DNA of 64,000 nt from Trachythela sp. YZ-2020 (taxonomy: Eukaryota > Cnidaria > Anthozoa > Malacalcyonacea > Clavulariidae), in contig JADLSH010000393.1 of assembly GCA_016169945.1 (NCBI GenBank), positions 5,411,501 through 5,475,500 on the forward strand, written 5' to 3'. A program made the translations under genes and the position numbers. The notes beneath the pieces were generated by a model. The model saw only the letters and a list, made by a program, of their open reading frames with translations. It was not told where the DNA came from and made no database searches. This document shows, piece by piece, positions 10,400 through 31,480 of this stretch (positions are counted from its first letter, which is position 1; the number at the start of each line of letters is the position of its first letter).

Positions 10400-11282
10400 T
10401 TATAATTATTGATCCTTACTTAATTTGGTTTTCTTTTTAAGAATAGTTGGTGCCTTGAGGCTGGATCGAACAGCTAGCAAATAATGTTGTTCTGTCAGTT
10501 TAAGATTAACCAACAACTGGTCAAATGTAATGTCGTCACCCTCTTTCATATCATTGAGACGTTTCTTTATAAACTTCCAAGTATCTTTATGTTGTCCAAG
10601 TTCATTATCATTCATATCAATATCTAATGGATATAGAATTTTGGTTGATCGCATAGGTTGGTTGGGGGTAATTAAAATGAGAATGAGATGAACCTGTCTG
10701 TTTACCAGTTTAAGTAACTCTTAAAAATCTGGCTTTTCACATATTATTTTATCAATGAATGAAACAACATCACAATCAAAATCTACACCATATGTAGGAG
10801 CATTTTCTAGCCATATTAACATATGAATATGAGGTGATCCCCTTTGTTGATATTCAACTCGGTAAAACCAGTCGGCAACTTCTCCTATAGGTGCAGTTTT
10901 ACTTACTAAGAAAATTTTGCAGAAACTTGTGTACTTGATAATCAAAGTGTCTAGCATGTGTCACTGGATCACTCTGAATTGATCTTCTCTTCCCAATTGA
11001 GGTTCTCAAGTTCATTGTCAGTGTATTATTTGTTATCAACAAGCTTACCAAGTACTCTGAGTAGATGAATCCATTGTGTTTCTGCAGAAGAAAAACTACA
11101 GAATAATGAAGCAGCACCTAACTGCCTTATCATCGCAAATATATCCTTTTTGGCTTTTTCAAAATATGGAGGTGAACCCCTCGCAGCTCTTAGAAATTTA
11201 AATCCTTGATCATGGTGAATCATGGTATCTATTGCACCTGGCTGTTTTAGTTGTCCAGCAGTAACTGTGCCACTATTTTGTT
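10400..11282 (-). pseudogene. Helentron HUH Rep nuclease domain
   Basis: This is the rolling-circle Rep domain that nicks and joins single DNA strands. Reading right to left: NSGTVTAGQLKQPGAIDTMI begins at the insert junction (11282), then HHDQGFKFLRAARGSPPYFE, DIFAMIRQLGAASLFCSFS, WFYRVEYQQRGSPHIHMLIW (HxH metal-binding motif near 10850) and PLDIDMNDNELGQHKDTW. Two or three frameshifts occur between 11050 and 10660. The upstream half of the protein (ALRKCQQNS) resumes at 30087-30115, on the other side of the 18.8-kb insert. Confidence 0.88.
11272..11282. repeat. Left target-site duplication of the 18.8-kb element
   Basis: The 11 bp ACTATTTTGTT directly abut the left terminal inverted repeat and are repeated exactly at 30076-30086. 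If the terminus is taken one base further out, the duplication is 9 bp instead. Confidence 0.85.
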
Positions 11283-11363
11283 AGTCTCCTTTGCAGCCGC
11301 TCTTTGTGTCGAGGTTTCTCCCCACTAGCGGCTGCTCACTCGAACACAACATTCCATTCCCTT
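11283..11363 (+). repeat. Left terminal inverted repeat
   Basis: This begins AGTCTCCTTTGCAGCCGCTC and ends ATTCCATTCCCTT. The reverse complement of 29995-30075 matches it with about three mismatches in 81 bp. It is followed at once by an ACCAATCAC box near 11369, and the RecQ start codon is 85 bp further in. Confidence 0.9.
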
Positions 11364-11365
11364 GA

Positions 11366-11380
11366 GACAACCAATCACAG
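11366..11380 (+). promoter_or_regulatory. CCAAT box inside the left end
   Basis: CAACCAATCACAG lies just inside the left TIR and 70-80 bp upstream of the RecQ start codon. The right end has a matching GCCAATCAGAG on the opposite strand. This suggests that both ends carry inward promoters. The activity is inferred. Confidence 0.4.
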
Positions 11381-11447
11381 CAATGCTTCTAAATTTTGTA
11401 AACATGACCTCGGATGCCTTGGACTTGTTTTATTCCGCGGGAACAAC

Positions 11448-12864
11448 ATGGCGGAATTGGAACGAGTGTTTAAAGTACTGAGCGATAAGTTCAAATTTGA
11501 TGATCTAAACGTGCATCAGAAAAATGCAATTACTTCTGTTGTTAAGAAAAAAGAGGACATATTCGTTAGTTTGCCTACCGTTTGCATTTGATGAATATAC
11601 TCGTAATACACGACACATTGTCGTCGTGATTTTGCCTCTTCTTGCACTTATAGAAGATCAGATCCCAAAATTTGCGGGGGTCGGAATAACAGCTGCAAGT
11701 CTTAGCCATATTACGACGAATGAAGAAATACAGCAAGTGGAAATAATGGGTTCATTTGCTATTGTATATGCGACTCCAGAAGGTCTTCTAAAAAGCGAAC
11801 GATGGCAACACATGTTGTCAAATAAAGTATATAGAGAACAACGTTGTGCAATTGCTGTTGACGAGGCCCATGTAATAAAGCAATGGTGAGTACTTTCAAT
11901 ACCTTATATGAAAATCAAATCATTCAAATTAGTACATTAAATTTAACTGTTTATTATTAGTACTGAATTATTTTATTTAAATTTTATTATTAATACTGAA
12001 TTTATATTAGACTGCTGTGTTATAATCAATAACAATATTTCTTTATCATTTCTATAAAGGGTACCTCAACTACTTCCAAATTGCCTCCATTTAGAGAATG
12101 CTATGGTCGTCTACATGAACTTCGATCCCTTGTTAGTACATCAACTTACGTCAACTTTATTGTGTAACTGCCACAGCTACAAAGGATACCAAGGATGTCA
12201 TTGTTGATCTGTTAGGTATGAAGAAACCACATGAAATATCGGAGAGCCCTGAGAAACCAAATATGACCTATGTCGTGAAACAAATTCCTCGGGATGCTGA
12301 TATACAGCAGTACTTTACTTGGCTTGTCGTGGAAACACAAGATAATGGAATGAAAATGAAGCGAACAATTATTTATTGTCAAACAATACATCAATAAAGC
12401 AAATGTTGGGAGACAGATTGTATGTTGACAAGGTTGGAGACAGGAAAAATGTTATTTTGGAAATGCTTCATTCATGCTCCCCATCTTGTAACAAAGAAGC
12501 TGTATTAAAGTCATTTAGAGAAGCAAATGGTGCAATACGGATTTTAGTGGCTACTATTGCTTTTGGGATGGGAGTAGATTGCAAAGGAGTGCACAGAACG
12601 ATCCACTTTGGGCCATCAAAAAATATCGAAGCATTTATTCAGGAGACTGGTAAGGCAGGTAGAGATGGGGTCCAAAGTTTATCTTACCTATTATATCATG
12701 GTTTACTCCTAACTCATGTTTGCCAAGACATTAAAGAATATATAAAACTCAAAGACTGTAGAAGATGTTTACTGAAACATTTTGCTTATGATGAAACTAC
12801 AACACCTGTCATACCTCATATGTGCTGTGATAATTGCACGCTTCGGCTTGTGCACTCTTCGTAG
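11448..12864 (+). pseudogene. RecQ-family DNA helicase, Walker A deleted
   Basis: This is a superfamily 2 RecQ-like 3'-5' helicase. The start at 11448 has a good context (AACAACATGG). Visible parts are KFKFDDLNVHQKNAITSV (N-terminal Q-like region), VVVILPLLALIEDQ (motif Ia), AIVYATPEGLL, IAVDEAHVIKQW (DEAH box), a GT-AG intron at 11886-12059, a TATATK motif near 12170, IRILVATIAFGMGVDCKGV (motif V), QETGKAGRDG (motif VI, with Lys where RecQ has Arg) and a Cys-rich zinc-binding end (CRRCLLKH, CCDNC). The segment that should hold the P-loop is missing between SLP and FAFDEY near 11577, with a frameshift, so ATP binding is lost. Two further frameshifts lie near 12160 and 12385. It is the first gene inside the left TIR. 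Confidence 0.85.
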
Positions 12865-13396
12865 ACAAACATGAATAAAACATGTAAAATTGAGTAATTA
12901 ATACCTCATGTTGGCTATCTGATTTTAATTTCAATATTGAATAAAAACATCTTATTGTTGTCCTTTCTCCTTTTAAACCGCCATCCAGGGTCTCAAGGCC
13001 TGGACTATATTGATGCAAAGCCATTGTATTAATGTAGAGCTGGTGAGAGAAAGGACATATCATATATTTGGTGAGTATATTGGGGTTGTATTATTATGTG
13101 AAACAAACACTAAATACCATACTATATTTTGCACGCTTCGGCTTGTGCACTCTAAGTCTACAACCATACTGTGGGAAAACGGTGTGAGCCAGTTAGATCG
13201 TATTCATTCTATCCTAATTAATCGGATGATGCTTTTCTAATAGAACACAGAGAGTGAAACAAACACTTACAAAAATATCGACATATATATATATATATAT
13301 ATAGATTTTCGCTTACCTCAAAACTTGTCTGCAACAGGCTGTTTCATCTGTAAAAGAATCATCAGGCAGTTTACAAGTATCGAAAGAAATGACCGC
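12865..13396. repeat. Spacer with a duplicated RecQ-end hairpin and (AT)n
   Basis: No gene was seen. TGCACGCTTCGGCTTGTGCA, the palindrome-like end of the RecQ reading frame (about 12836-12855), is repeated near 13132-13151, both followed by CTC. An (AT)n tract lies at about 13280-13302. Confidence 0.5.
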
Positions 13397-14287
13397 TTAT
13401 ATGCTTCCTGCCGGGGCGTGGGGGTGTGTGTGGGAGACAATGTGTGCATGCATGGCTTTGTTTGCGTTGTTTATGCGAAATTTGTTACAATGACAAATTA
13501 TTTCAGCTCTTTTGTTGAGTAAACAATCCTTGTTTTTTTCTTTCAAAATACAAAATTTTTCTTCTAAACATAAATTGCATCGTTTTGATCCTCCCGTATA
13601 CGAAATAGAATGTTTTAAAATTTGCCAATTAATACTGAAATCCTTATTGTTTTCTTTCAATGTCCAAATATATTTCGAAAGTTCCGTGTCATTTGCATGC
13701 TTTTTATGCTGAAAAGTTTTAGTGTGGTTGGTCAATCGCTCTTTGAATGTGGTTGCAGTCATGCTAATGTAATTTTTTATTGTGTTTGTGTTGCTTACTG
13801 TGACTGTTGCTTTGTATACTATGTCCCTAGTCATGCATTGTTTTTGAAGCGGGCAAATGGTGTTTTCTCTACAACTGCAATTGGTAGTGTCCCTCTCCTG
13901 TGGCTTGTTATTTCTAGATATGCGTGCATTGTGTTTAGTGATTACTGACTTAATATTGTTCATGCAGCTATAACTTACTTTAACTGTATGTCTGTTAAAA
14001 ATTTTATGTAGCTTGTGGTGCGGTGGAAAATGTTTGTCAATTAGACTAAGGAAATTACGTCCTATATTTGTGCTAACACTCTTGCTAAATGGTGGGTTGA
14101 ACCAAATGATGTTGCGTTGCCTATTCCTGCGTTGTTTTTGCGGTGTGTGCTGAGTGTAGCTAAGTTCATGATTAAAGTTGCTATGCCTAACTGTGTTTTA
14201 TATGGGTGCAGATTCCTGAAAAGTTTGCTCATCTGATGAAAGAAGTGCGATGCGCTTGTTAATTGATGCAGGTAGTTGCCTTGTGAT
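13397..14287 (-). pseudogene. Penelope-like element 3' end with GIY-YIG endonuclease
   Basis: This is the C-terminal part of a Penelope-like retroelement polyprotein. From 14287 leftwards come ALLSSDEQTFQES, RRNRQRNIIWFNPPFSKSV, NIGRNFLSLIDKHFPPHHKL, IFNRHTVKVSYSCMNNIKSV, the Cys-rich CSCRENTICPLQKQCMTRD and the GIY-YIG-type module (DIVYKATVTVS, KNYISMTATTFKERLTNHT, ELSKYIWTLKENNKDFS, GGSKRCNLCLEEKFCI). The GIY core is degenerate (NYISM instead of YIGxT). The RT domain is absent, so this is a 5'-truncated copy. It lies inside the 18.8-kb element and is probably a secondary insertion. Confidence 0.85.
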
Positions 14288-14410
14288 GCTCGGTGGGTGA
14301 TTAGAGTGCATAATAATCACCCACCGAGCATTTTTCGTAACGATGCAATTTATCAAAACGATGCAATTTGTTTAGAAGAAAAATTTTGTATTTTGAAAGA
14401 AAAAAACAAA
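14288..14410. repeat. Fold-back junction with an inverted Penelope-like fragment
   Basis: A perfect 17-bp inverted repeat (14288-14304 and 14314-14330, arm TGCTCGGTGGGTGATTA) with a 9-nt loop marks the truncated end of the Penelope-like copy. Immediately after it, 14357-14406 repeats on the plus strand the coding stretch found on the minus strand near 13531-13582 (RCNL.LEEKFCILKEK). The two fragments are therefore head-to-head, as is common for this class. Confidence 0.65.
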
Positions 14411-14431
14411 CTGGGGAATTCATTCCGGCCA

Positions 14432-14905
14432 CTTAAAAAACCATAGCAACAGTCTTTGTTTGTGTTTGGGCCTTTTCCGGTTGTTTTTGTCTGAAATTCC
14501 GGTTTGACCCGTACGCTACATTTCAAATTTCGCCGTAACTTTGTCAATTTTTATTGTGTTTCTTTGAAAGTTGGTCAGTATGTACTGTTTTTAAAGCTCT
14601 ATAAAACGGTGTATTAGCGAAGGTCACAGAAGTTATAATCGACCAAAGGTACTGAATATATAATTAGTTTACGATAATAATAAATATCAGATTACAAAGG
14701 TGTTAAAACTCACAGAGATCTGTAAAACAATGTATTTAGCGATTTGTTTGGATTTAGTCAAGAACAGGTGTGTTTGCTGAATCGATTGGTGATCGATTGG
14801 TGGTAGTTTCGTCCGTTTTGGGTGAGGGGGCGCCAAAGATACAAGCGCTCAAAATCATCATGCGTTGGCGGATGATATTCGACGCTACCGTTTAGAAAGA
14901 GTTAA
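14432..14905 (-). repeat. Dispersed repeat = 3' end of the DUF6589-like gene
   Basis: The segment starting CCACTTAAAAAACCATAGCA and running to the AAAGAGTTAAC region is also found at 54662-55120, with its left part again at 53299-53526. Read on the minus strand, its right part encodes the C-terminus of the DUF6589-like protein (NGSVEYHPPTHDDFERLYLW). The rest would be its 3' untranslated region. The shared left boundary suggests an element terminus or the limit of a transposed unit. Confidence 0.7.
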
Positions 14906-17900
14906 CAGCTCATCCAAATCCTGTTGTGTAGAGCAACAGGAATGTTTCCCTGAACCAGAAATTCGCTCAATGCTTTTATCGATATGTGTAGTAAGATTTT
15001 TTAGACCTTGCTCTGCATGACATATGCAGTTAACTGCCTGGTCAGTTAAATTTGGACCAACATTCTTAACTGCCTGTTTGATATAATTGTTGCTATGCTC
15101 AACATTTAAATCCAGGGCAATATTATTTCCATGACCACCAGCATTTATTTACTGTTCTATTCCAGGTGAAACGTTCGCTGTCTCTAGGAGAAAGAAGGGC
15201 AAATGCCATGAAAGACTGATATAAGCATTCAAGAGCATACTTTGTGCTATGTTGCTTGTCTGCTTTGAAATATAGAAGCATATATTTGTATTGCCTCAAG
15301 ATTCTTAATCCATTCCCTTCAGAGGTAGCATCTAAAAAATTCAAAAATAGTAAGCCATCTCTCATCACAGCACAGTTGTAATTAAAAATATCATCTGTGT
15401 GCATTTCACCACTTATATATGAAATGCTTGGGATTATTGATGTTGGACTAGGTAGCTCTGGAACAATAGGTAGTGGTTGATGAGACAGTTCATGTTTTCT
15501 CCTGCTTTTACCATCATACTTAAAGGATTTTTTACATCCTTCAAACTACAAGGGAATCGTCCATCAACATTTAAATTCCTGACTCCTGGTTTTTTATTGT
15601 GCTGTTATTACTCGATCAATTGCTTCACTTATATTCCCTTTGTTGAACACAAATGCATCAACAACCATACCAGCAGCTTCATGAAGTATCTTCTGTTTCT
15701 CCAGCTTCGAATAATTCAATAGATCTTTCGGTATTTGGAAGATTGTTGGTTGGCTGCTTTTGCATTGCAATCCAAGAACATTCATTGCTGCAGCAATAAT
15801 TCTAGACTTCAAGACAAGTAGGAAAAAGTCTCTATTTGCCCGATAGCTTGAGTGAGTATCTTGAGTAACATTGCGACGATTAATCAAGGTTCTGTCTGAA
15901 TACATGGTACAATGATCACTTCCAGATTTGGTTGAATAAAATCTGCAATATATTAACTAATAAATAGAAGTAAAATTAAAGTGTATTAATATTAAATGTA
16001 TTTGATACTGACATTATACTCTAAAATATAATTGTTTGTTACATACAGTAGGATATTTGAAAAGTACAGTATCATATGTTGGGCAAAATGATTAGTAAGA
16101 ACCACCACCTTATAAAATTGAATATAAAAGTTAATGGTTACATTATACTTACATCAAGGAATTTGACAGCTGCATGCCAATCGCCTAGTTGAAAATGCAT
16201 GCCTTCAAGTCTTGCTTCTGCAGAATAACCATTAGAAACTGAAGAAATTATATTTACTGCTCTCTCAACAGCGAGTTGGTCTCCAGCAAATAACTCCCCA
16301 TCAAACTTATCCTCCCCAATATCTGGAAGATATTTATGAAATTGTTGCAAAATTGACAACATTTCGTCATTGACATTTTCATTTTTAAATATGATTCCCA
16401 GAGGGATCTACAAAAAGAGACATACTTGTATTAGATGATACGACTCACCCAATTTATTAATTAACCAGACCATCTTGTAGTGCATACTCAAAATGCTAAT
16501 AATCATGGGGGTGGATTTACTGAGGGGAGGGGGGGGGTGTAAAATAGGTTAAAAAGGTACATGAGAAATACCATTGTTATTTTGAATTGAATTGAAAACT
16601 AACTCCATAGTCTACAAAGAATAATTGGATCCAGTGGCATAAAGCAACAGCAGAAGGTCCCCATTAGAAAATTTTCAAACCATAATTTTGGCAATTTGCT
16701 CAACTTTCAAAATAGTTATGGTTGCACTTGCAGCTTTGTTGTGAGAATACTGTACTTTGGTATTACTATATTCTAATAATTAATTCATGTATTTTAATAA
16801 CTGTTTTTCATTATTCAATATTTCCTTGGAAATGTACTAGCAAAAATTTTGTAGTAATTTTGCCAGGGGCCCCAGGCTTGGAGGTCCCCATCACTCAACA
16901 ACCGGACACCCGCCAGTTACACCACTGAATGGATCAGATCTTCCAATGTGCCAATTAGTAACATTGTTTTGAACTAACCTTATCTGATTTTTCAGATATT
17001 TCTTTGCTGTATTTATGTGGTATATGTTTAACACACACATCTTTAAACTCAGCAAATGCATCGAAATAGTCAGATAATATCCTCCACACCAGAACAGTAT
17101 AATTGAGCCTCTGCTGTCTTTGACCAGCAACACTGGGAAGGAAAACGATGTTTGGTATATCATGAATGACAAATGGTTGCCAGACACCCTATTCTCAATC
17201 ATAACATGATTTACCCAGTGTATGTCCCTGTTTTGGGATGTCATTGTCATATTTCTTCTTTTCAGGTGAAAGTCAATATTTGTCAAAAGCAATAAAAAAA
17301 CCAGGGTGACATTTTCTTTATGCATCCTTCAACTCAGTGGTGGCTTTCTTAAGCTTAGATGAAACAGATTCTTGCTGATGTTTAGATTGCACATTTTGCT
17401 CAGCCAAAATTGTTATAAACTCATTAACTTCCTGTTTTTTCTTCTCTATTGCTTTATGTTCATTGACTATTATGTCTTTGACTTCATGCAGACGGACATC
17501 ATGAGACTGGCCAATTACTTCTAGCTTTAATAATGTACGATAATTTGATGTAGCAAGCTTCAACTAACTAAATCTGTTCAGGGTTGCCTATAACAAACAA
17601 AACACAAAACCCAGTTTTAGAAAGCATAACTTTGAAAGGTTGTTGATATGCAGTCAGTTCAAAACTCAGATTTAATATCACAGATGCGGATACAAACTGA
17701 GGTAAAAATGCTGCTGCTTGACTGTGCAATTATCGAGGAATATAGTACTTGGCTAAAAACGATCATTTCATGAATGATGAAAACAGGATTGAACCGTGTT
17801 TTCCCACATTATTCACAGCTGTCAACAATATTGTTACACTCGATTTAGGTCAACAATATTGCTGACAAGTGTGAACAACGTGGGCCCAGCAAAACATTGT

Positions 17901-19367
17901 TCAATCATGTAATTTTTATGCCTGTATTCTGTGTTACAGGCTAGTAATATAACACCCTGTGATCCAGGCTACCTGTAGAACATTAGGGACTTTAATTGGG
18001 GGCCTCTCTTTGTGCAACCTAGCTTATGTTTCAAAAAATGTACTTATAGTTATATGTAGCTGCATGCACTCTTCATCCAATCAACAGAGGTGCAGATACA
18101 CTAATACAGTAACACATCCTGAAATTGTTTTTATCCAGAGCATGAAAGGTACAGTAGATATGGGGTGAAGATATTAAAAGGTTTATAGCCAAACTCTGAA
18201 ATGCATAAAACAAAATATTTATACTATACATATAAAAATCCAAGTTCATACCTCGATAGACTTTGTTTTCTAAAGTAATCCAATGACAATGGCTATTGCA
18301 CTCATATGGTTATTACGCTGTTTCAAGAGTATAGATCCTGATACGGCAATACTTGGGAACCATGTACTATGATGCATGTGACGTTTTGAGGTACTACATG
18401 TTAAAAGGAATGCATAAAATATTGGGGCTCTTCTTTTCCATTCTTCACACAATTTAAGCATATCATAGTTTATAAGGTCATCCTTTTCATTTTTTCTTAA
18501 CAGGGAGGGGTCCCTTTTAGAACACAAGTTGTCCACTTCATTGGAAACAGCACGCAACACCTGTTCAATCACAAGCGTTCTGATGGATTCGCATTTAAAA
18601 ACTGCCTTGGCAATTCTCGAAGGTGGACCATGGGCTATTGCTTTTCCAATAGCTTCGAACTCTGATGTGAGGGTTTTATTGACAGTCTTACTAGGAAATT
18701 CCACTGTTATTGTAACGTTCGTATTGGTTTTATTTAACAAATTTTTCTCACGGGAAGGTTTAGTGACTGGGCCCACTGGGGTTGAAGTAAACAGATGTCG
18801 AGATAATATTTGACCAGTTGATATACCAGCCGGAGCACGCAAACCAAATGCGTTGTAAACAAGTTGTAGTGAACCATCGTAGTACTGTGGCAAAGGACTG
18901 ACAAGATTTGCATGTAACAACTCAGTGAGTGGATTTAAAACATCACCGGTAGGAGTCGAATAGGCAACACATTTGGCATGTTCTCCCACGACTTGATTGT
19001 CAAATTTCAGTTGCTTCCCATGTGACGTCTTGCTTGGGGGTTCTTGTTGAATACTCGATGTTTCAGCAGATCGATGTTGCCTTTTGAATCGTCGATAGCA
19101 ACCTACTGCTGTGTAAATATCCTTTAGTTCTTTCTTCAATTTTTCAACATTGGTTACAGCCTTATCGTATTTAAGCAAATGTTTGTAACACTTCATGCAT
19201 ATGAAAGCTCCGGAACTATTGTAACATGATACGTCGATGTTTATTGAATTATTTATGAGATTAGGAATGTCAGGTGCAGTTGACCCAAATATTTTAATCC
19301 GCTCCTGTGGCTGTATATTATTTAAACAGTTCGAGTCGTGTTTTAACTTTTTTGGAGTTTCATCCAT
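14800..19367 (-). pseudogene. Multi-exon DUF6589-like TE-associated protein
   Basis: The function of this gene is not established. Exon 1 (19367 to about 18252) starts MDETPKKLKHDSNC. It has a CxxC knuckle followed by a helix (FICMKCYKHLLKYDKAV) and ends with WFPSIAVSGSILLKQRN, a motif I associate with this family. Exon 2 (about 17592-16977) has a coiled coil and NIDFHLKRRNMTMTSQNRDI. Exon 3 (16407-16153, with TAG acceptor and GTAAGT donor) has ELFAGDQLAVERAVNI and ARLEGMHFQLGDWHAAVKF, the segment I recognise as DUF6589-like. Exon 4 (about 15943-14800) has a C2H2-type finger (C-x4-C-x12-H-x3-H near 15480-15565) and the C-terminus VEYHPPTHDDFERLY. Several frameshifts (near 18267, 17200, 15590 and 15540) break it. 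A transposase role is a guess. Confidence 0.6.
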
Positions 19368-19703
19368 CCATAAAGAAATACATTCAAATTAATGATCAAA
19401 TGTTGCATATGAAAAGCATTAGTAGCATTCTTGTTTATAAAATGATACTGAGAATTTCGCTGGAAAATGTATTAAATATTAATACTAGAAATAGTTTACA
19501 CTAAAACTGCCCCCGGCTGATTATAGTGTACTGTTATTGAAAATAATCATGTTTCTAAGTTTCCATTTTATGAGAGAGGCTCCCAGGCCAAATGCATGCG
19601 GTCAGTTTTTAAAAATTATTGTAAAATCTATATTTTATTGCAAAGATTTCGCATTGACATTGATTGTACAAGCTTAAACAAACGTCTTTGTTTGGTTGCT
19701 AAT

Positions 19704-19897
19704 CAATCTCGTTCCCAGAGTATGCCTGTTCGCGGGTTGTGGCATGACTCTGGAGAAATCGAATGAAATAATGAATTTCATTGGTTGTCCTGAATGAGAC
19801 GATGAATTTCATCGGTTGAATTTTGAAAAATTCAATTCGATTTCCCCAGTCATGCCACTAGACAGCCTGCAAACAGACATACTCTGGGAACGAGATT
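19704..19897. mobile_element. Palindromic MITE, about 194 bp
   Basis: The arms are CAATCTCGTTCCCAGAGTAT on the left and its near-perfect inverse (ATACTCTGGGAACGAGATT) on the right. They extend about 75 bp inward through GTGGCATGACT and AAATCGAAT. The flanks GGTTGCTAAT (19694-19703) and GGTTGTTAAT (19898-19907) look like a 10-bp target-site duplication with one mismatch. It sits upstream of the DUF6589-like start and is a secondary insertion. Confidence 0.75.
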
Positions 19898-20061
19898 GGT
19901 TGTTAATGCAAAGTCAAAGAAACGGGCAGATATAATTCGTAGGTTTATAGCCAATGGCAATGAGAAAACGAAAACACAGTACAATGAATAATTATGTATT
20001 GATAATATATGTACAAACAAAACAATAACAGTAACAAAGAAGGTATCACATAAGTTATGTA

Positions 20062-20212
20062 CAGGCATGTCTACAAAAACCAGACCTTAAAAATTAGAAA
20101 TTTATTAGAAAATTAGAACTTTAAAATTGCTTCTAATTGCATGCAAAAATGCCAGACAAAGCAAAATTTCTAAAGGCTCTAATTTGTAAAGGTCTGGTTT
20201 TGAGACACCCTG
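20062..20212. mobile_element. Mariner-type MITE, about 151 bp
   Basis: The ends read CAGGCATGTCTACAAAAACC on the left and, inverted, CAGGGTGTCTCAAAACCAGA on the right. Both are flanked by TA (20060-20061 and 20213-20214). CAGGGTGTC termini with a TA duplication are typical of Tc1/mariner-derived MITEs. It has no coding capacity. Confidence 0.75.
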
Positions 20213-20282
20213 TACAGTATGTGCATTGTATTGTTCCTTGTGCAAGATATTCTAATTGTTCATCATAGCCCAAGGAATGCCA

Positions 20283-21719
20283 CTAGTGAGGCTGGACTTT
20301 GGAAACCAGTCTTCCATTTTGTGACAAGTGGAAGTCTGTAGACTCCAAGCTTAAAAGTTTCTCAATTAGTCCATCTACGTCGTTTCTGTATTCGTATACA
20401 TCTTCGTTCAGGAATGCTGATAGAACTCTGCCAAATGCTGTAACAGACATTGTTTTTTCATCCTTCTGCAGCTGAAAGTTAACATTCATATCCAGGTAAC
20501 AGTTTTTCATGAGCATGGACCTGTTGCATGATAGGCACTTAACAAGTTTAGTGCCAGGGTTGCCATTAATCTTCTTTCTGCAGTCTTTGTTGTTGCACAC
20601 TGGGTACATATTGACTGATACATTCAATATTTCTGGGCAGCACACAATTGTTTGATTTGCTTTTGGTACATCGTTTACCGTCTGGCTTGCTGCTTCGGTG
20701 ACAGTTGTCGTTCGAGACGTTGAAAGACATTTGCCGTAATAAAATCTGAGTTTGCACTCAGTTATCGTAAAATTCTCCTTCTTCGATTTGTTCAATATGG
20801 TCTTCCCAAATGGAAATCTTGATTGTTCCAGTACTGTCTGTAATGGTTCCATCGCGAACAAGTTTGGTAGATTCCTCTTTTGGCTTTTGGGGAGGTCCAG
20901 ACCACCGGAGAAGTCCCGATACCGCAAATGTACCCGTTGAATAATTTTGAACTTCTTTTATGGCTGTTACTTGTTTAGTTTGTAACTGGCGGTATTGAAA
21001 GTCAAGAAAATGAGGTGGTACATCCTCGATAACAGCTCCCTTGTTCAAAAAGACAGTGCCAGTTGTCGAAATTGGCATGTTTGATAATTGTATTGGTTGT
21101 TCTGCAGCCATTTTATCCACAAAGAACTGTCTTTTGTTGCTGTCCCCTCTCTGATGCATGACTCTAACAGTTTTACTCTCTGCTTCTGACATCTGAAGGG
21201 TAATGTCGTAGTAGAGGTTTGAGCTTCTTTGGCTCTGTTGCACCTTTGTTACGTCTTGTACATAACCAATGTACTCTGTTGGAAAAAAAACATGGGCAAT
21301 TAATGAGCCAAATGTTGTACATTATCGATTGTGAATGCTAGCTACATACAGGAACATTCAAATACAGACAGACAGACAAACAAATAAGAAAAATCAAGAA
21401 AATACTCACTTGTTCTGGAAGGAGATTGTGGGCTACATGGAGTATAGGATAGGGGTGCACCATACTTTATTCTTTTTGAAGGGCTTGGTGTGGTTGGTGT
21501 ATAAATCTGTAAGTATGGTAATTAAAGTGCAATTAATTTAAACATGTGAAATATTTTATCACAATAGGGATTTTTATCTTACCCTTTTTGATGCACCTGG
21601 AGCTTCCTCACTTATAACGTTCTCACTTAAAGCGTCAATTTTGTCCAGAGTGCGAGCATCCAAGTTGTCATTTTTCATATCTGACATAAAATCGGATACT
21701 GGTGCTGTGCTTTCCATCT
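20283..21719 (-). pseudogene. RPA-like single-strand DNA-binding protein, three exons
   Basis: This is related to the large subunit of replication protein A, which coats single-stranded DNA. Exon 1 (21719 to about 21584) encodes MESTAPVSDFMSDMKNDNLD and ends at a GTAAGA donor. Exon 2 (about 21509-21413) encodes a Ser/Pro-rich linker (IYTPTTPSPSKRIKYGAP). Exon 3 (about 21275-20283) has EYIGYVQDVTKV, a first OB-like region, a second OB fold (GTITDSTGTIKISIWEDHI) and a zinc-ribbon OB region (CNNKDC, then CLSCNRS), as in RPA1 C-termini. One frameshift near 20770 separates EEGEFY from TITECKLRFYYGKC. It follows the HUH-Pif1 gene by about 100 bp in the same direction. A paralogue lies at 35107-35983. 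Confidence 0.75.
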
Positions 21720-22607
21720 AAAATTTTGTAAACACATTCAGCTTAAAATACCATAAAGATAAAAAATGAATATTGTAACTTGGAATGGATACTGTATAAA
21801 GCATTACAGTGTTGCTAATTAGTTGTTATTTTGGGTTGAGTTGAATTTGCAGGCGTTTGCATTGTATTTTCTGCTAATTGGCATAGCCGGTTCTTCTAGG
21901 ATTCTATATTTAAAATTTGAGGTCTTCTTCACCGCACTCAGTCTAGCAAAAGTCATCGGTTGAATGACTATGTCTGAGATTTTTTTTGCTCTTGATAGTG
22001 CAACATATGTCATACCTGCAGCTTTCTCAGAGGGACCTAAATCAACCCATACATTTTAAGTATGGTAATTAAAGTGCAATTAATTTAAACATGTGAAATA
22101 TTTTATCACAATAGGGATTTTTTTATCTTACCCTTTTGATGCACCTGGAGCTTCCTCACTTATAACGTTCTCACTTAAAGCGTCAATTTTGTCCAGAGTG
22201 CGAGCATCCAAGTTGTCATTTTTCATATCTGACATAAAATCGGATACTGGTGCTGTGCTTTCCATCTAAAATTTTGTAAACAAATTCAGCTTAAAATACC
22301 ATAAAGATAAAAAATGAATATTGTAACTTGGAATGGATACTGTATAAAGCATTACAGTGTTGCTAATTAGTTGTTATTTTGGGTTGAGTTGAATTTGCAG
22401 GCGTTTGCATTGTATTTTCTGCTAATTGGCATAGCCGGTTTTCTTCTAGGATTCTATATTTAAAATTTGAGGTCTTCTTCACCGCACTCAGTCTAGCAAA
22501 AGTCATCGGTTGAATGACTATGTCTGAGATTTTTTTTGCTCTTGATAGTGCAACATATGTCATACCTGCAGCTTTCTCAGAGGGACCTAAATCAACCCAT
22601 ACATTTT
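21511..22607. repeat. Tandem duplication, units of 547 and 550 bp
   Basis: 21511-22057 and 22058-22607 are near-identical, differing by a few short indels. Each unit holds exon 1 of the RPA-like gene with its donor plus the C-terminal coding end of the Pif1 helicase. The left unit therefore contains a stray helicase tail (21819-22013), and RPA exon 1 is present twice (21584-21719 and about 22131-22266). Confidence 0.9.
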
Positions 22608-24279
22608 TCAAAGTTAGCCCCTGAGCTTTATGGATCGTTATTGACCATGCAAGTTTGAGAGGGTACTGTTGGCGTTCACATTTTTGTCCATGTGTCTCAG
22701 AATTACTTGTTACAGGATATAACGGAACACAATTTCGAAGAGTTGGGGAAAAACTCGGTCCTGAATAATCTTTTTCATCAAATTGAACTATAATGGCAAT
22801 TGGCAATGCTGGTGGACACTGTCCTTCAGCATAAATTATGTGAAGTACAGTTCCAACAGCTCCATTGCAGAGACCAACTGCAGTCCAAAGGTTGCGAGTT
22901 AACATAACCCTAGCAGATTTAGCTATATATAAAGTTGGTTGTAATCCTCCCATATCATCTGCACTCAGATTTTTAGCCTGGGTGTTGTTGTGTTGTGCAT
23001 TAATTTGAATTACTGGGTTGTTTAAATGTTCTAAGGCAATATAGTTGTCCTTCGCAACTTTTTCATTGCTATAAGACAATTTGACAAAGTGAGCTATGTT
23101 TTTAACACAAGTAGGTTGTCGTGTTAATAATAATTTCCAGTCATCCAAAGACGAGTCACCATTTCGTGCTCGCAGTAGAAGCTGCCTAAAAATTTCTTGT
23201 TGTGGATCACTACCCTTCGCTCTCTCATTAACTTCTAACCTTATAACTATTTCAAACTTGCGATACATGCAATATCCTTCAGTTTCTAAATCACTGTGCG
23301 GTTTGTTGTGGTACAAGACTTTATCACCAACTGGAGGAAGCTGAGCAACATCTCCTACTAATATTATTGATATTCCTCCAAAGGGGATAGCAGTTAACCC
23401 TGTAGCTTGTCTTAATCTTCTGTCAATCCAACCAAACATTTTTTGCCCAATAACAGAATACTCATCAATAATTAAGCATTTGATGCCATTTAAATCATCC
23501 TGCAATTTAGACAACGCAGTGGATGTCAATGGGCCATTCCTTTTAGCTCGTATTGGCAATTGTAAAAGTGAATGCAAAGTCGTACCACTTACATTAAATG
23601 CTGCAATTCCAAAGTATGCAGATACTTTACAACTGTTGTTAAGCAGACACCTAATTGCATCAATGACATAACTTTTAGCCGAGCCAGCTAAGCCAATGAT
23701 CATCATTAGCAGTTGGCCATTAGTTTCACTTGAAAAATGATTTTGAACAATATCATAGGCAGTTTGTTGACATTCGTTTAAAGAAGTCACATTAATCACT
23801 GTCTCAGATGTAGTACCTATACTATGAACAAAGCTTGTTTTTTGTGTATTAATCCAGTAAGGCATATCTCCAATTTGCTCTAGATTGTAGTTTAACCTGT
23901 CTAATTCCCAGTATCCTTTAGGATATGAGCATGTTTTATCTGATTTTTCATTATTCTCATAGTTGAGATCTGCTAAATACATCCACTCTTCTCTCTCTCC
24001 AATTTTATCAAGACATACATCATCTGGGTCACTTAATTGAGCATACTCTGAAATAGACTGTAATTGTTGAGACCAATCAGGTACAAGTTTTCTTCCCTCT
24101 GGGCTACTTAGAAAAGACTTCCAGCTCTCAATATAAACAGAATCATGACTTTCCTGATTGTCCCAGGCATTGTCTAGGCAATTATGCCATGGTTTGAATT
24201 TTAATAACTGGTTTTTACAAAATGATGCATATAGAGGTCCTTTGGGATTAGCAGAAAAATTAGGGTAGGTTTTTACCAC
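22363..24279 (-). CDS. Pif1-like helicase half of the HUH-Pif1 protein
   Basis: This is a 638-codon open stretch. It begins with a Helitron-typical region (MVKTYPNFSANPKGPLYASF, PWHNCLDNAWDNQ) and continues into a superfamily 1B helicase. Walker A is GLAGSAKS (residues 196-203, with Ala in place of the usual Gly before Lys). FGIAAFNVSGTTLHSLLQLP follows, Walker B is CLIIDEYSVIGQ (Asp-Glu at 272-273), then ISIILVGDVAQLPPVGD, a C-terminal ITIHKAQGLTLKNV (motif V) and MTYVALSRAKKISDI (motif VI). It would unwind DNA during rolling-circle replication. The open frame is the longest in the window and suggests recent activity of this part. The HUH domain lies upstream in other frames (24568-25956), so the full protein is broken. 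Confidence 0.85.
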   Translation of the reverse strand: MVKTYPNFSANPKGPLYASFCKNQLLKFKPWHNCLDNAWDNQESHDSVYIESWKSFLSSPEGRKLVPDWSQQLQSISEYAQLSDPDDVCLDKIGEREEWMYLADLNYENNEKSDKTCSYPKGYWELDRLNYNLEQIGDMPYWINTQKTSFVHSIGTTSETVINVTSLNECQQTAYDIVQNHFSSETNGQLLMMIIGLAGSAKSYVIDAIRCLLNNSCKVSAYFGIAAFNVSGTTLHSLLQLPIRAKRNGPLTSTALSKLQDDLNGIKCLIIDEYSVIGQKMFGWIDRRLRQATGLTAIPFGGISIILVGDVAQLPPVGDKVLYHNKPHSDLETEGYCMYRKFEIVIRLEVNERAKGSDPQQEIFRQLLLRARNGDSSLDDWKLLLTRQPTCVKNIAHFVKLSYSNEKVAKDNYIALEHLNNPVIQINAQHNNTQAKNLSADDMGGLQPTLYIAKSARVMLTRNLWTAVGLCNGAVGTVLHIIYAEGQCPPALPIAIIVQFDEKDYSGPSFSPTLRNCVPLYPVTSNSETHGQKCERQQYPLKLAWSITIHKAQGLTLKNVWVDLGPSEKAAGMTYVALSRAKKISDIVIQPMTFARLSAVKKTSNFKYRILEENRLCQLAENTMQTPANSTQPKITTN

Positions 24280-24323
24280 AACATTTTATCTCGTTTTTAT
24301 CCCTAATTTAGCTTTTGAGAATG

Positions 24324-25956
24324 TCAAGCAAATTGAACAAAATTAAGTTTTGATACACCAGGAAAATCATTCTCAAATTGGGTCCTTTTGGCATACAAGT
24401 CAAGAATTGATGGTTCTGTTTGCAGTTGGCCATTTTGGACTTTTATGTTGCGTGATCCATTAAGGGATGCAGTTACGACTTGAAAGATGAGCTTAAAAGT
24501 TTTATTGAAAGTATTTGGTGCATTACTTCTTGAATACCCATATCTCTTTGTCCAATGGCTCGCATCATTAACTTTTAATTGCCATTTTATTGTCACTATT
24601 ACTTTGACTCACCACAGATGTAAAAACCTCTTTGGCAACAGATGATAACTTTTCACACTTAGAGGCATATTTAGCAATATATTCTAAACACGAGTGATAA
24701 TCAATGATAACCTGGATGTCACAGTTAGCTCTCCACCCCTGCAACTGCGTTCGTTGGTGATTATTAATACGGGTATCATTACGTTTTGTGTTTACTTTGA
24801 CTCTGTAATGCAAAGTGCCATCTTTGGAGCGAATCTCCTCAAACTGCAAGTGAGTCTTTTCGCTTAAATCTTTTGGATAATTAAAACGACAAGATAAATT
24901 TTCATCTTCACCTTTTTTACGCAAACAATAAGCTGATGAACATTGCGAATGCCTCTGTACTAAATTTACTAAATCTTCATAATCTTTATCCCATTCACTT
25001 TTAGATATATCTTTAAAATGTTTTTTGCAAGGGTGGGTTGCTGGTTTTACCCAATGACTATTATCAATATCTGGATTGCAAGGATTTACTGTTGTCAAAA
25101 TCGAATCAATATATTGGCAAATAGCTGTTTCTGCTTCCTGTCCCTCTTTTATGATGAGTTGTTTTTCAGACAAATTATCCTCTGACAGGTTCTGTAACAA
25201 TCTAAGAGATTTTGCAGTTACATAACCCTTTACTGCTTTTTCCGAAAGTTCACATAAGTTAGGATCATTCTCAAGTTTTGCTACCCCGTGACAATGAATT
25301 GAGCCTCTTTGGACAGCATACTCGTACCTAAACCAGTGCCAAGTTGCACCAAGGGTTTCCTTGAGCCAATACTTCACAAATTTTTCAGTTCGCTCAGTAA
25401 ATAACCAATCTAAGAGGTGGGGATTATTAACTACATTTCCCCTTCGCTCAGTATTTTCTATGTCAACATCACCTCTTAGCAGCTGATGGAATTCTGGCCA
25501 ATGGAAATCAGCACAAGATAAAGTCCAGAATATTGTTGGTGGACCCTTTTGATTAATTATTGTTTTTAAATCCTCTCTCGCTTTACTCCAATAAGCATTT
25601 GTTCCACTAACATTTTTGCCATAATGCATGAGTTTTGACATTAGAGAGTTATACGAGTTTGAAAGGAGCATTTCTTTTAAGTTATCTAAAGTTAAGTTAG
25701 CTTCGGAAGGATTTTGTTTCAAAAAATAACTTCCTTGGCCTAAAATTCGTCTGCGATATAATATGTTATAAGCCCAATACCCAAATCTAGGATGTGCAGC
25801 AAATCGATAAATCCACTTATCATTTATCCTTTCTGAAAACTTAATTAAATGTTTTAATTTGCTTGCAAATGCATCAGTCAAATTATTTCCAGTATCTATT
25901 AAAATAGCGTTGTTGGTTGGATCTCCTTTTCCGTCAGGAAAGAGTGTGGAAAACAC
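24324..25956 (-). pseudogene. HUH Rep nuclease domain of the HUH-Pif1 protein
   Basis: From right to left, CFPxLFPDGKGDPTN opens the Helitron-like N-terminal domain. HPRFGYWAYNILYRRRILGQ, YGKNVSGTNAYWSKAREDLK and PPTIFWTLSCADFHWPEF follow. The HUH metal motif is QRGSIHCHGVAKL (His221 and His223 of the 462-codon stretch). The catalytic tyrosine pair appears in CLEYIAKYASKCEK (Tyr426 and Tyr430). After a frameshift at about 24590, DASHWTKRYGYSRSN continues to 24324. The domain nicks single-stranded DNA and forms a 5'-phosphotyrosine bond. It is clearly divergent from the HUH domain of the host Helentron, so the two elements belong to different lineages. Frameshifts at about 25965 and 24590, and a short gap before 24279, separate it from its neighbours. 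Confidence 0.85.
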
Positions 25957-25987
25957 ATTGTTGCTAGAAATGGTACAGTAAATTCAT

Positions 25988-26665
25988 TTAGTGGCTCATT
26001 CCTATATGCCATTCATGCTTTTTAGTCTGGTCAAGAAATTGATCATGAATAACATCTTTCTCCTTTTTTCTATTAATATTTGTTGGAAGAAAACTACTCA
26101 TTTCACTATTTTCATCATAAACTTTATCATCAGTATTAAGATTATTTGGACCTAAGTCAATGTCGACTTCTTGGCCTTCTGCAGGATCATTTTCTAAGTC
26201 AACCGTTGTCATATTATTGAGAACACCATTTTCAGGTAATGAGTCAAGTGCATTGCGATCTATTGTGACATTTTGGTACAAATGATTATTAGGTTTCCCA
26301 GTTTTATCTAAACCAGTAAGCCAAAATAGAGCCTGCTCAACCTTTTCTCTACGTACTATAAAATCTTTAGAGTTGTTATTCTTTCCTGCTACAGTAAAAA
26401 CTATGACTGGAAGATCCTTTGGGCACCTTGGTAATACGTCAGCTAGTTGTTGCACATCTTGAGGTAATGTTATCACATGACCTTTGTATGCTTTTTGACC
26501 ACCCCTTGGTTTTGTATATACATGCATGACTGGAAATGCTCTAGCAATTAACATTTCTTCAAATTGAGTTAAACCTTGCAATTGTTTTGGAACTGGGGAT
26601 GGTATCATTGAGTTCTCGATTGAAAACTTTTTTGGACTATTTTTATCACGGAACACCTGGCACAA
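25988..26665 (-). pseudogene. DUF6570-like domain of the HUH-Pif1 protein
   Basis: A 225-codon open stretch holds GLTQFEEMLIARAFPVMHVY, RGGQKAYKGHVITLPQDVQQ and VLPRCPKDLPVIVFTVAGK. This is the N-terminal region commonly found before Helitron Rep domains (DUF6570-like). An acidic linker (DLENDPAEGQEVDIDLGPN) follows. The frame is lost just before 25988 and resumes in another frame with RNEPLNEFTVPFLATMCFP. It lies between the protease domain (26697-27107) and the HUH domain. Confidence 0.7.
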
Positions 26666-26696
26666 ACATACTTAGACACCTCTTTTGGTTTGGTTT

Positions 26697-27786
26697 TCAA
26701 CGGCCAAGCTTCATGGCATACAGTACATTGATATATACACAACTGCATTGCTTTATGAAACTTTTCATGTTTTCTGTACAGTTTTTTTGATTGTGCACTT
26801 TTATGTCATTGCCTAACTCAAGTTTTGATTGTTTTTGTGGACAGCCTGAAATATCATCACAACTTCTTTTTCTCTTTAAAGTAGGACTTAGTATTCTATC
26901 ACTTTCTAAATTGCAATAAAGTCTGCTGGGATTAATGTTGTTTCCATCACTTAGTTGAAAAATAGTGAAAAACCATCCAACTGGGTAACGTTGTTTTAGC
27001 TGATGCAACGAAGTAAACTCTTGTACCGTACTACAGATATCATCAAAGTAGACCCATTTGTCTCCAATTTTAATGGCACAAGTAAAATGTCTTTGATAAC
27101 ATCGCACTAAACCTTGTAATGTGTAGGACTATTATTAAACTCAGCTTGCTCCTGGATGGTTAAACAATTCATTATTTCATTTGAAAACTCAATAAACACA
27201 AACTTTGAATTGACAGCAGACATACAAATAGGATCAGACACATTACTCTCTGAACAGTGTTTACAAATTACTTTTTTTGGCTTTTTGAAAATATGTGACA
27301 CAGACAATGGCCAACATGCAATATCAAAACCAGTCTGTTTCAAAGAACCATTGGATACATATATCAGGAAAAGCTCCAAATCCGAAGTCACTGTTTGTTG
27401 ACATGTCTGGCAATGAGATTCAAATGTTCTCTGAGTCATAAATAAATTCATTTCCTCTGGGGTTAGTTTGCCAAAGGTTCGCTCCTCAAAAATTTGACTA
27501 AAACTGGCATTACTATCCCTAGGAAGCAATGTGCTGCAAACTTGTGTAAGGTAATACCAAACTGGTTCTCGTATCTGTGGCAAACACTGCTGTTTTTGTG
27601 ATTGAAAATAATCATTCATAGCACAACAGAGCAATTCAATAAATTCACTTTGTACCATTAGTGTTTTAAAATAAGGTAGAAATAGATAGGCTGAAACCTC
27701 AAGAAAACAATCAATTGCACACGAGAAAGTCCCAGGTTTACTATACAAAGAATTCATAAAATGGGTTCTTTTAGCGGTACATACTT
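26697..27786 (-). pseudogene. Ubiquitin-protease-like (USP/C19) domain, copy 2
   Basis: This looks like a deubiquitinase domain fused upstream of the HUH-Pif1 protein. The Cys box is PGTFSCAIDCFLEVSAYLF (candidate nucleophile Cys in SCAID). A CxxC pair follows (HCQTCQQTV, then ICKHCSE), like a USP zinc ribbon. The His box with the downstream Asp pair is RHFTCAIKIGDKWVYFDDI. The order Cys box, zinc ribbon, His box and the spacing fit peptidase family C19. There is one frame change at the 27107 boundary. After the His box, VGWFFTIFQL leads into the DUF6570-like part. It would remove ubiquitin or a similar modifier from host proteins; that role is inferred. Confidence 0.65.
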
Positions 27787-27949
27787 TCTGCATTCCACAT
27801 TTACCAGGGGAAGTACTTGACATGCTAGTTACGTCTGGTTTTCTGTTATGAAAGGTAGATGCACTGACAGGCTCTTCTGGGTGTTTTTTGGTAAAATAGT
27901 TTTCTTGTTTGTTTTTCAACATACAGGTACTAAATTTGTATATGGCAAA

Positions 27950-28772
27950 AAACCACCCTTTGCTATAGTAAAAACAGCTGATGCGAAGTAAACTCTTGTA
28001 CCGTACTACACATATCATCAAAGTAGACCCATTTGTCTCCAATTTTAACGGCACAAGTAAAATGTCTTTCATAACATCGCACTAAACCTTGTAATGTGTA
28101 GGGACTATTATTGAATTCCGCTTGCTCATGGATAGTTATACAATTCATTATTTCATTTGAAAACTCAATAAACACAAATTTTGAATTGACAGCAGACGTG
28201 CAAATAGGATCAGACACATCACTTTCTGAACAGTGTTTACAAATGATTTTTTTTGGCTTTTTGAAAATATGCGACACAGACAATGGCCAACATGCAATAT
28301 CAAAACCAGTAAGTCTGTTTCAAAGAAGCATTGGATACATATAAAGCTTCATATTCGAAGTCACTGTTTGTTGACATGTCTGGCAATGAGATTCAAATGT
28401 TCTCTGAGTCATAAATAGATTAGTTTCCTCTGGGTTTAGTTTGCCAAAGGTTCGCTCCTCAAATATTTGACTAAAACTGGCATTACTATCCCTAGGAAGC
28501 AATGTGCTGCAATGTTGTGTAAGGTAATACCAAACTGGTTCTCGTATCTGTGGCAAATGATTGCATTTCTCTCTCGATAAATTGGAATATTCTGACAAAA
28601 CATTGTGTAACAAGTCTATGAATTCAGTTCTAGCTGACAAGTTTAACAATGCTGGCTGAAATAGATATCTTGACACCTCCAAAAAGCAATCAATTGCACA
28701 TGAATACATTCCTGGGTTTTCCCGCAATGAATTCATGAAATGCAATGAAATGCCCTTTGCCTTTGGCCGCAT
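27950..28772 (-). pseudogene. Ubiquitin-protease-like domain, copy 1
   Basis: This is a second copy of the domain at 26697-27786, shifted by about 973 bp and lying upstream of it. The Cys box is PGMYSCAIDCFLEVSRYLF, the zinc ribbon has HCQTCQQTV and ICKHCSESDV, and the His box is RHFTCAVKIGDKWVYFDDM. The region between the Cys box and IREPVWYYLTQ differs strongly between copies (LSARTEFIDLLHNVLSEY here), while the rest is nearly the same. A 60-residue linker (GWFFAIYKFSTC to KCGMQKVCTAKRT) joins it to copy 2. Frameshifts at about 28320 and 27985 break it. Confidence 0.6.
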
Positions 28773-28799
28773 AGCTAATAATTATATTAGTTGCACAAA

Positions 28800-29693
28800 A
28801 TGTTATGACTCCTTTCTTTCAAAAACACTTAGAAGGTTGGTAAAATTGGACGAACTTTAAAAGTCAAACAGTAACCACATGTAACTTGACCCTTGTGCGC
28901 CCATCCGCTGAAGCCTGGCACTTTTCAATATAATCAAACAATGAGTCCCTGTTACAAACGTTTTATAGTGACGGGTTGTGTGCCTTGTTTTATGGTTTTT
29001 ATATTGGTTAAACTTCGCTCGATTTTTAATATTTGTATCTGTTTTCGACTGACTGATTGTGAACCAAGTCTTTTGGTGTGAAGTTGTGAACCAAGTCTTT
29101 TGGTTTCGGTTTTGATTTGTGTCTGACAAATCGTAGTTGATACTGAATACTCGATAGACCGACGGAGTTTAATTTAATCTTGTGTTACTGTTTAACCTTT
29201 TCGTTTATATTTGATCTGAATTATAACGCAACCTTTGAACCTCGCACAGCTACGCATACGAATACTATACTGTAATAAAATTTGAACCTCACCTTTTAAA
29301 CTTGTGACCTTTTATACTATTAAAACGAATTGCCTCTTCGCAGCTTTAACGATTTATGCGCTTGACCTTAAACAATTTATACAAAGCGACTATTAGAAAT
29401 GCAAATATATATTTAAATGATGTCGCCCGAACAAAGACTCTTTGTCTTAAAATTGATTCCCAAGGATGAAATCATAAATTCGTGGGTCTGGCCTGGGTAT
29501 TTAATACTTGAACTTTTAAAAACGTAATAATGATATAATCTGAACAACCACTAACCTTTGAAATTGCTGTCAATGTCTTGAAATTCAGAAATTCACTCAA
29601 AGTCTCAAATTTGAAATAAACTTTTCACTGTGCGTAACCCAAGATCCAGCAGCCAGAGGAGAAGAGAAAAGAGACCGAACCTCGTGGACATCT
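28800..29693 (-). other. Leader region of the HUH-Pif1 transcription unit
   Basis: No conserved domain was found. It contains a short imperfect direct repeat around GTGAACCAAGTCTTTTGGT (29057-29103) and AT-rich sequence. It lies between the TATA box near 29700 and the first protease domain, so it may be a 5' leader with introns. Confidence 0.35.
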
Positions 29694-29706
29694 ACTTTAT
29701 ATATAC
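29694..29706 (-). promoter_or_regulatory. TATA box facing the HUH-Pif1 gene
   Basis: On the minus strand the sequence reads GGGGTATATATAAAGTAG, a strong TATA match. A pyrimidine-rich stretch (TCTCTTTTCTCTTC) about 30-50 bp downstream could hold the start site. It lies some 290-380 bp inside the right TIR and points toward the protease-HUH-Pif1 gene. Confidence 0.55.
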
Positions 29707-29965
29707 CCCGGCACGGGCACGATGACGTAAAAATCATTCCCGATAAACCTTGCGCAGATACGGCGCTGCCTTTGAGTAACTTGAGAACGCAGGCATGCCG
29801 CTGTTTTTGCAGTAATTTGAGATATTACCCACCAATGCTTTGCGGGCAAAAACTGTAAAACTTAAATTTATCTGCCTAGCGTATATCATATTACCGTGCG
29901 GGGACTTCAATATATGCCTCCTCGGGTTTTGGCCCTCTGGGGCCAAAACCCTGCGGGGGCAATTA

Positions 29966-29984
29966 CGCTAACTCTGATTGGCTA
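29966..29984 (-). promoter_or_regulatory. CCAAT box inside the right end
   Basis: GCCAATCAGAG on the minus strand lies immediately inside the right TIR. It mirrors ACCAATCACAG inside the left TIR. A short inverted repeat around GGCCCTCTGGGGCC (29932-29945) is next to it. Confidence 0.4.
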
Positions 29985-29994
29985 ACGTTAGACA

Positions 29995-30075
29995 AAGGGA
30001 ATGGAATGTTGTGCTCGAGTGACCAGCCGCTAGTGGGGAGAAACCTCGACACAAAGAGCGGCTGCGAAGGAGACT
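29995..30075 (-). repeat. Right terminal inverted repeat
   Basis: The reverse complement begins AGTCTCCTTCGCAGCCGCTC and matches 11283-11363 over 81 bp with about three differences. It is followed outside by the 11-bp duplication at 30076-30086. Confidence 0.9.
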
Positions 30076-30086
30076 ACTATTTTGTT
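30076..30086. repeat. Right target-site duplication of the 18.8-kb element
   Basis: ACTATTTTGTT is identical to 11272-11282. One copy is part of the Helentron codons Q-N-S at the insertion site. Confidence 0.85.
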
Positions 30087-31245: not shown

Positions 31246-31480
31246 TACTGGCATTTCTTTTGCTTAGATGCAGCACTGGGTGTTGATCGCTGGAGACTCT
31301 AACTATCCCGTTTTTGTTTCATATATCCATTCATGTACTGGTTTCTCTTTTGCTTGCTCGTTTTCTTTTCATGTATTCTCTCATGTACTGTGTTTTCAGT
31401 TGCTTGGACTGAGACCGTACTGTGTTTTCAGTTGCTTAGACTGAGACCGTACTGTGTTTTCAGTTGCTTGGACTGAGACC
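31110..31480 (-). repeat. In-frame peptide repeats in the Helentron N-terminus
   Basis: Two nested repeats are visible. A unit of about 75-85 bp encoding variants of YMNEFMKQKRDSENVQ and TTSAASKQNKK recurs about three times (31110-31400). A unit of about 33 bp, ACTGTGTTTTCAGTTGCTT(A/G)GACTGAGACC, recurs three times (about 31386-31480). Both lie between the OTU domain and the Cys-rich domain. Confidence 0.6.

Follow-up and report, generated by a model that had tools for sequence, protein, structure and literature searches.

A Helitron within an AcademH-type element that interrupts another Helitron's gene: a very probable case of stacked transposons in the anthozoan Trachythela

Positions 5,411,501 to 5,475,500 of contig JADLSH010000393.1 from the anthozoan Trachythela sp. 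YZ-2020 form a stretch of 64,000 nucleotides, hereafter the window, that contains an 18.8-kb segment bounded by terminal inverted repeats (TIRs). Between these repeats lie a gene for a RecQ-type helicase and a gene whose product carries the domain DUF6589, together with a gene for a HUH Rep and Pif1-type helicase (RepHel), an RPA-like gene and a ubiquitin-protease-like gene (Table 1). A preliminary description, made from the letters of the window, offered two accounts of this assortment: a giant DNA transposon representing a new class, or a TIR element that had swallowed a Helitron. Our analysis makes a version of the second account very likely, in which an AcademH-type element sits in the RepHel-like gene of one Helitron and a second Helitron sits inside the AcademH-type element.

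The outer element begins with TAGTCTCC and finishes with GGAGACTA, giving ends of the form TAG...CTA. An inverted-repeat scan and a pairwise comparison agree that its TIR arms are 96% complementary over 82 nt (3/82 mismatches), a length and identity that we judge incompatible with a chance match. The identity and inverted arrangement reported in the preliminary description were correct, and its length of 81 bp becomes 82 bp. The flanking duplication, given there as a perfect 11 bp, is 9 bp; we discarded the longer version on the evidence of other copies, which agree in having 9 bp, and it had arisen because the element's own terminal T and A were counted in. When the flanks are joined with a single 9-bp copy, an open reading frame (ORF) is restored across the site, as had been noticed before. 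The two parts of this frame resemble Helitron_like_N and DUF6570, and that domain order makes it probable that the insertion interrupted another Helitron's RepHel gene.

Table 1. Features of the window (positions counted from its first nucleotide).
Feature	Position	Strand	Remarks
Target gene, downstream part	11029..11272	-	Helitron_like_N-like, 8.1e-5, below curated cut-off
Target site duplication, left copy	11273..11281		9 bp, CTATTTTGT
Outer TIR element (AcademH-type), whole	11282..30076		18,795 bp including Helitron; 8,317 bp without it
Left TIR	11282..11363	+	82 bp; end position fixed via other copies
RecQ-type helicase gene	11448..12861	+	DEAD, Helicase_C, Zn-binding C-terminus; exons in several frames, decayed
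Stretch between RecQ and DUF6589 genes	13530..14409		880 bp; perfect 41-bp inverted repeat at its bounds
DUF6589 gene	14903..19367	-	several exons; candidate transposase
Nested Helitron	19485..29962	-	10,478 bp; ends uncertain by one base
RPA-like gene of Helitron	20286..21321	-	weak Rep_fac-A_C match in 20286-20957
Pif1-type helicase part of RepHel	22366..24285	-	PIF1 4.8e-23
Helitron_like_N (Rep) part of RepHel	24571..25983	-	3.2e-25; HCH and YxxxY motifs
DUF6570 part of RepHel	25991..26671	-	4e-33
Ubiquitin-protease-like gene of Helitron	26700..28781	-	partly tandem-duplicated (~975 bp)
Right TIR	29995..30076	-	82 bp, 3 mismatches vs left TIR
Target site duplication, right copy	30077..30085		9 bp, CTATTTTGT
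Target gene, upstream part	30086..30753	-	DUF6570-like, 0.002, below curated cut-off

The window's own assembly (578 Mb, 396 contigs; G000) was searched for related sequences. The left TIR yields at least 44 matches there (best 40 of 65 candidates scored). We examined 40 regions around TIR matches, in two sets of 20 and with several overlapping the same places; a second TIR end is present in 15 of them, the window not counted, and the remaining loci have one end. Among the first 20 regions a filter retained both ends in seven (L011, L014, L017, L019, L024, L026 and L028). L012, L018, L020 and L027, which the filter dropped because their second end matched only from inside the TIR, were inspected later, and L034, L039, L043 and L044 from the second set were also inspected for duplications. 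With ends fixed as TAG...CTA, the duplication matches at 9/9 positions in the window, L011, L019, L024/L026 (one site) and L043, and at 8/9 in L014; that of L019 can alternatively be read as 10 bp if the left T is assigned to it. The left end is not intact in L012, L018, L020/L034 (one place), L027/L039 (one place) and L044, where 1-4 of 9 positions match. The TIR-flanked loci L011, L019, L024, L026 and L043 gave no match to element DNA or protein at the thresholds used. TIR-flanked copies of this kind, lacking the genes found in the window, had been named in the preliminary description as a sign of accidental nesting.

Two RecQ loci of one group, C385 and C237, were chosen for inspection. C385 holds a complete sister element of 8,478 bp, whose TIRs start with TAGCCTCC and are identical at 79/79 positions, and which is flanked by a 9-bp duplication, GGTCTTATG. 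It encodes RecQ on the plus strand, with a Walker A motif, and DUF6589 on the minus strand, and none of six Helitron protein queries matched it at E<=1e-3. The examined part of C237 (L064) contains RecQ and part of DUF6589. A Paramuricea clavata protein, P0008, is matched by pieces of the DUF6589 protein from C385; identities are 86-99% in L063 and 95% in L065, and a further piece reaches 38%. These matches point to an octocoral host. RecQ and DUF6589 genes likewise converge within the outer element of the window, where, with the Helitron taken out, the start of the DUF6589 gene lies near the right TIR.

A second comparison locates the inserted DNA. In L031 (C123), DUF6589 exon 1 follows a right-type TIR with no Helitron in between; this locus aligns to the window with 94% identity over 406 columns, which places 10.5 kb of extra DNA in the window. 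L031 follows the outer element for ~1.2 kb and then diverges, and is a truncated relative. Read on the minus strand, the extra DNA is a Helitron running from TTGCCCCCGCAGGG to CTATTTCTAG and flanked by A and T. Its insertion point is 32 bp inward of the right TIR's inner border and upstream of the DUF6589 gene, and no duplication accompanies it.

The same Helitron ends recur elsewhere in the assembly, and clean-ended copies of this kind were the other sign of nesting that the preliminary description had proposed to look for. A 447-base query from the 5′ end finds at least 41 matches (best 40 of 75 candidates scored); matches covering 412-447 of the 447 bases at 98-100% occur at 13 places outside the window and also, split into two pieces, at C191. 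We read 14 of the 5′ junctions (L049-L062), which comprise 9 of the 14 close places and 5 more distant ones. Together with L040 and the window, all 16 junctions have TTGC or TTGT at the 5′ end, preceded by A in 13 and by T in 3, and by eye their flanks are unrelated except for a flank common to L061 and L062. At the 3′ end, CTATTTCTAG is followed by T in the window, L040, C324, C130, C82 and C224, with CTAG in 6/6 copies read. The flanks on both sides are A and T in the window, C130, C82 and C224, and T and T in C148. Only the window, among the Helitron copies, has an insert-free relative for comparison.

RepHel itself has at least 74 matches in the assembly (best 69 of 1,053 candidates scored), with 96-99% identity at C324, C224, C379, C351, C82 and C390, 90% at C191 and 85% at C130. 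Between the matched 5′ end and the start of RepHel there are 5.67-5.69 kb in the window, C324, C130 and C82; the spacing is 5.96 kb in C224, 6.03 kb in C191 and 8.63 kb in C351. None of C130, C224, C324, C191 and C351 appears among the TIR matches listed (40 of 65 candidates scored).

We propose the following sequence of events. An AcademH-type element with 82-bp TIRs, RecQ and DUF6589 would have inserted into a RepHel-like gene and duplicated a 9-bp target, moving by cut-and-paste with DUF6589 as its putative transposase, while RecQ may have assisted by unwinding strands. A different Helitron, equipped with RepHel, RPA-like and ubiquitin-protease-like genes, would have entered the outer element between A and T without duplication. 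Its ends and junction are read directly, and the behavior of its family suggests that it came by rolling-circle insertion. Because it is nested in the other element, the Helitron presumably arrived second. The same end structures would be seen if the nested pair had moved into its present site as a single 18.8-kb unit, since the outer ends and duplication would look identical either way. We consider this unlikely. The assembly contains at least 150 RecQ-like places (best 150 of 538 candidates scored), and there is no second close copy among those 150; the best-scoring others stand at 54-57% identity, and none exceeds 61%.

Several features connect the outer element to AcademH. According to published accounts, AcademH transposons encode a helicase and generate 9- or 10-bp duplications (PMC10045372), and a RecQ helicase had been noted earlier in Academ (PMC3627910). 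The title of the founding AcademH paper (Kojima 2020, Mob DNA 11:15), as cited in PMC10045372, refers to helicase-encoding transposons of animals and fungi. The outer element likewise has TIRs, a superfamily II helicase of RecQ type and a 9-bp duplication; the window copy differs in its nested Helitron, in an 880-bp stretch bounded by inverted repeats and in its decayed RecQ. Membership in KolobokH or another group of RecQ-bearing elements is very improbable. KolobokH also encodes a RecQ helicase, beside a transposase, and a red-alga Kolobok carries RecQ on the complementary strand; however, Kolobok makes a TTAA-specific 4-bp duplication and KolobokH is described only from fungi (PMC9587614), whereas the duplications here are 9 bp long and lack TTAA, and the outer element has a separate, convergent gene.

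The least tenable account is the new giant class, a TIR transposon replicating with its own Rep/Pif1, RPA and RecQ set, which we regard as extremely improbable: all these genes do sit between the TIRs of one element, and a further Helitron relative (C148) has a diverged TIR end nearby, but the same Helitron ends occur at loci on contigs without a TIR among the matches listed, the complete sister element has no Helitron, and L031 has none at the junction. The combination of a helicase with 9- or 10-bp duplications was, moreover, already on record for AcademH. We therefore withdraw this candidate class, which nesting can mimic, in favor of a TIR element that swallowed a Helitron. The locus is probably best described as a member of the known AcademH lineage with a nested Helitron, both being candidate new families.

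Some observations weigh against the stacked arrangement or its AcademH assignment. The duplication matches at only 1/9 positions in L017 and at 7/9 in L028. Four of the 14 close 5′ matches (C320, C324, C351 and C216) leave the last 16-35 bases toward the 5′ terminus unmatched. The Helitron-free relative L031 is a truncated paralogue at another locus and does not represent the window site itself. In C148 (L040), 1.6 kb separate the Helitron relative from a diverged TIR end, and the relative is found where the body of a TIR element with that end would be expected; no partner TIR was found within the 10 kb examined, and the sequence just inside this TIR did not match the other TIR loci compared. 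The putative AcademH membership is founded on helicase type, duplication length and TIRs. Finally, for the predicted transposase, AlphaFold2 applied to DUF6589 relatives (alignment A1, 10 rows) gave a mean predicted local distance difference test (pLDDT) score of 38, too poor for a fold search, and a profile of the same alignment found no solved structural relative at the thresholds used.

The RecQ, DUF6589 and HUH-Rep/Pif1 genes named in the preliminary description are all clear in domain or profile matches. For the window RecQ, Pfam gives DEAD at 1.5e-7 and Helicase_C at 9.7e-13, and TIGR00614 matches part of the protein at 3.3e-22; WRN and RecQ chains are the best PDB matches, and the WRN alignment includes the zinc-binding cysteines. 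The Walker A stretch present in the C385 sister copy is missing from the window RecQ, which has a frame change at the same spot. Alignments of the DUF6589 gene shift frame twice, near 17280 and 15146, and ~50 C-terminal residues of its relatives are unmatched in the window gene. Given the missing Walker A stretch and the DUF6589 frame breaks, this copy of the outer element is probably dead, or at least non-autonomous. The repertoire of RecQ-like helicases in the assembly is very large, and several places score equally, an indication that AcademH-like families have recently been active in this genome.

Beside RecQ, DUF6589 is the other gene that the window element and the C385 sister have in common. 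It is rather likely that DUF6589 (PF20231) is the transposase of animal AcademH transposons, and the complete AcademH-type element documented here, with convergent RecQ and DUF6589 genes, makes it a testable candidate. All DUF6589 relatives that bear organism names are anthozoan, and the literature searched contained no paper under the name of this domain. If the proposed role is correct, it would give a function to a domain of unknown function that occurs in many anthozoan proteins.

The accessory genes of the Helitron are less sharply defined than its RepHel. The RPA-like protein mentioned in the preliminary description does match Rep_fac-A_C, albeit weakly (1.3e-5, 25.5 bits, under the 28.5 cut-off); the second ORF piece of this gene has no match, and at the thresholds used the RPA-like piece found no solved structural relative. 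For the ubiquitin-protease-like gene itself, no Pfam match is convincing; among its 26 relatives, 7 match UCH (best 1.6e-4) and 12 weakly match a zinc-ribbon model, and one relative, P0139, has Helitron_like_N within the same ORF. AlphaFold2 on these relatives (A2, 26 rows) reached a mean pLDDT of 44.5, too poor for a fold search, and a profile of A2 found no solved structural relative at the thresholds used. RPA and OTU-protease ORFs have been reported in Helentrons (PMC4067079), and fish Helentron deubiquitinases have been assayed (PMC9741609). The RPA-like and cysteine-protease-like genes of the window Helitron recall those of Helentrons.

In other respects the Helitron resembles the canonical type. 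It combines a HUH Rep with a Pif1-type helicase, is inserted between A and T without duplication, and has a CTAG 3′ end, of the canonical CTRR form, preceded by a palindrome; the hairpin stem finishes 12 nt ahead of the terminus (z-score -2.5, with 5/200 shuffles as good), against ~11 bp in the canonical type. Its 5′ end, however, is TTG and not the canonical TC. The apurinic/apyrimidinic (AP) endonuclease domain that marks the end of RepHel in Helentrons had no Pfam match in the RepHel ORFs scanned, which were ORF pieces and not a spliced model. With a 5′ end other than TC and no AP endonuclease match, the window Helitron fits none of the three named subtypes (Helitron, Helentron and Helitron2) perfectly. 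By eye, a short complementary motif, TGCCCCC/GGGGGCA, occurs near both of its ends, as in types with asymmetric or subterminal inverted repeats.

Several smaller features were noted along the way. Within the Helitron, a tandem duplication of ~548 bp at 21510-22607 is 99-100% identical, and another of ~975 bp at 27009-28742, which copies the protease-like gene, is 73-97% identical depending on the piece. Near the 3′ end of the Helitron, a 40-bp inverted repeat (88%, 121-nt loop, window positions 19701-19901) has the look of a small miniature inverted-repeat transposable element. L035 and L036, considered as evidence for a larger TIR element, were rejected because one and the same outer flank is common to both; their contigs have 9.8 kb in common at 97%, TIR outer flank included, and represent either a duplicated locus or two haplotypes of the assembly. 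The minus-strand ORF of the 880-bp stretch at 13530-14409 has no convincing Pfam match; by eye it looks similar to the GIY-YIG terminus of Penelope-type elements. On the right side of the outer element, positions 31164-31480 hold short tandem repeats (90 and 32 bp).

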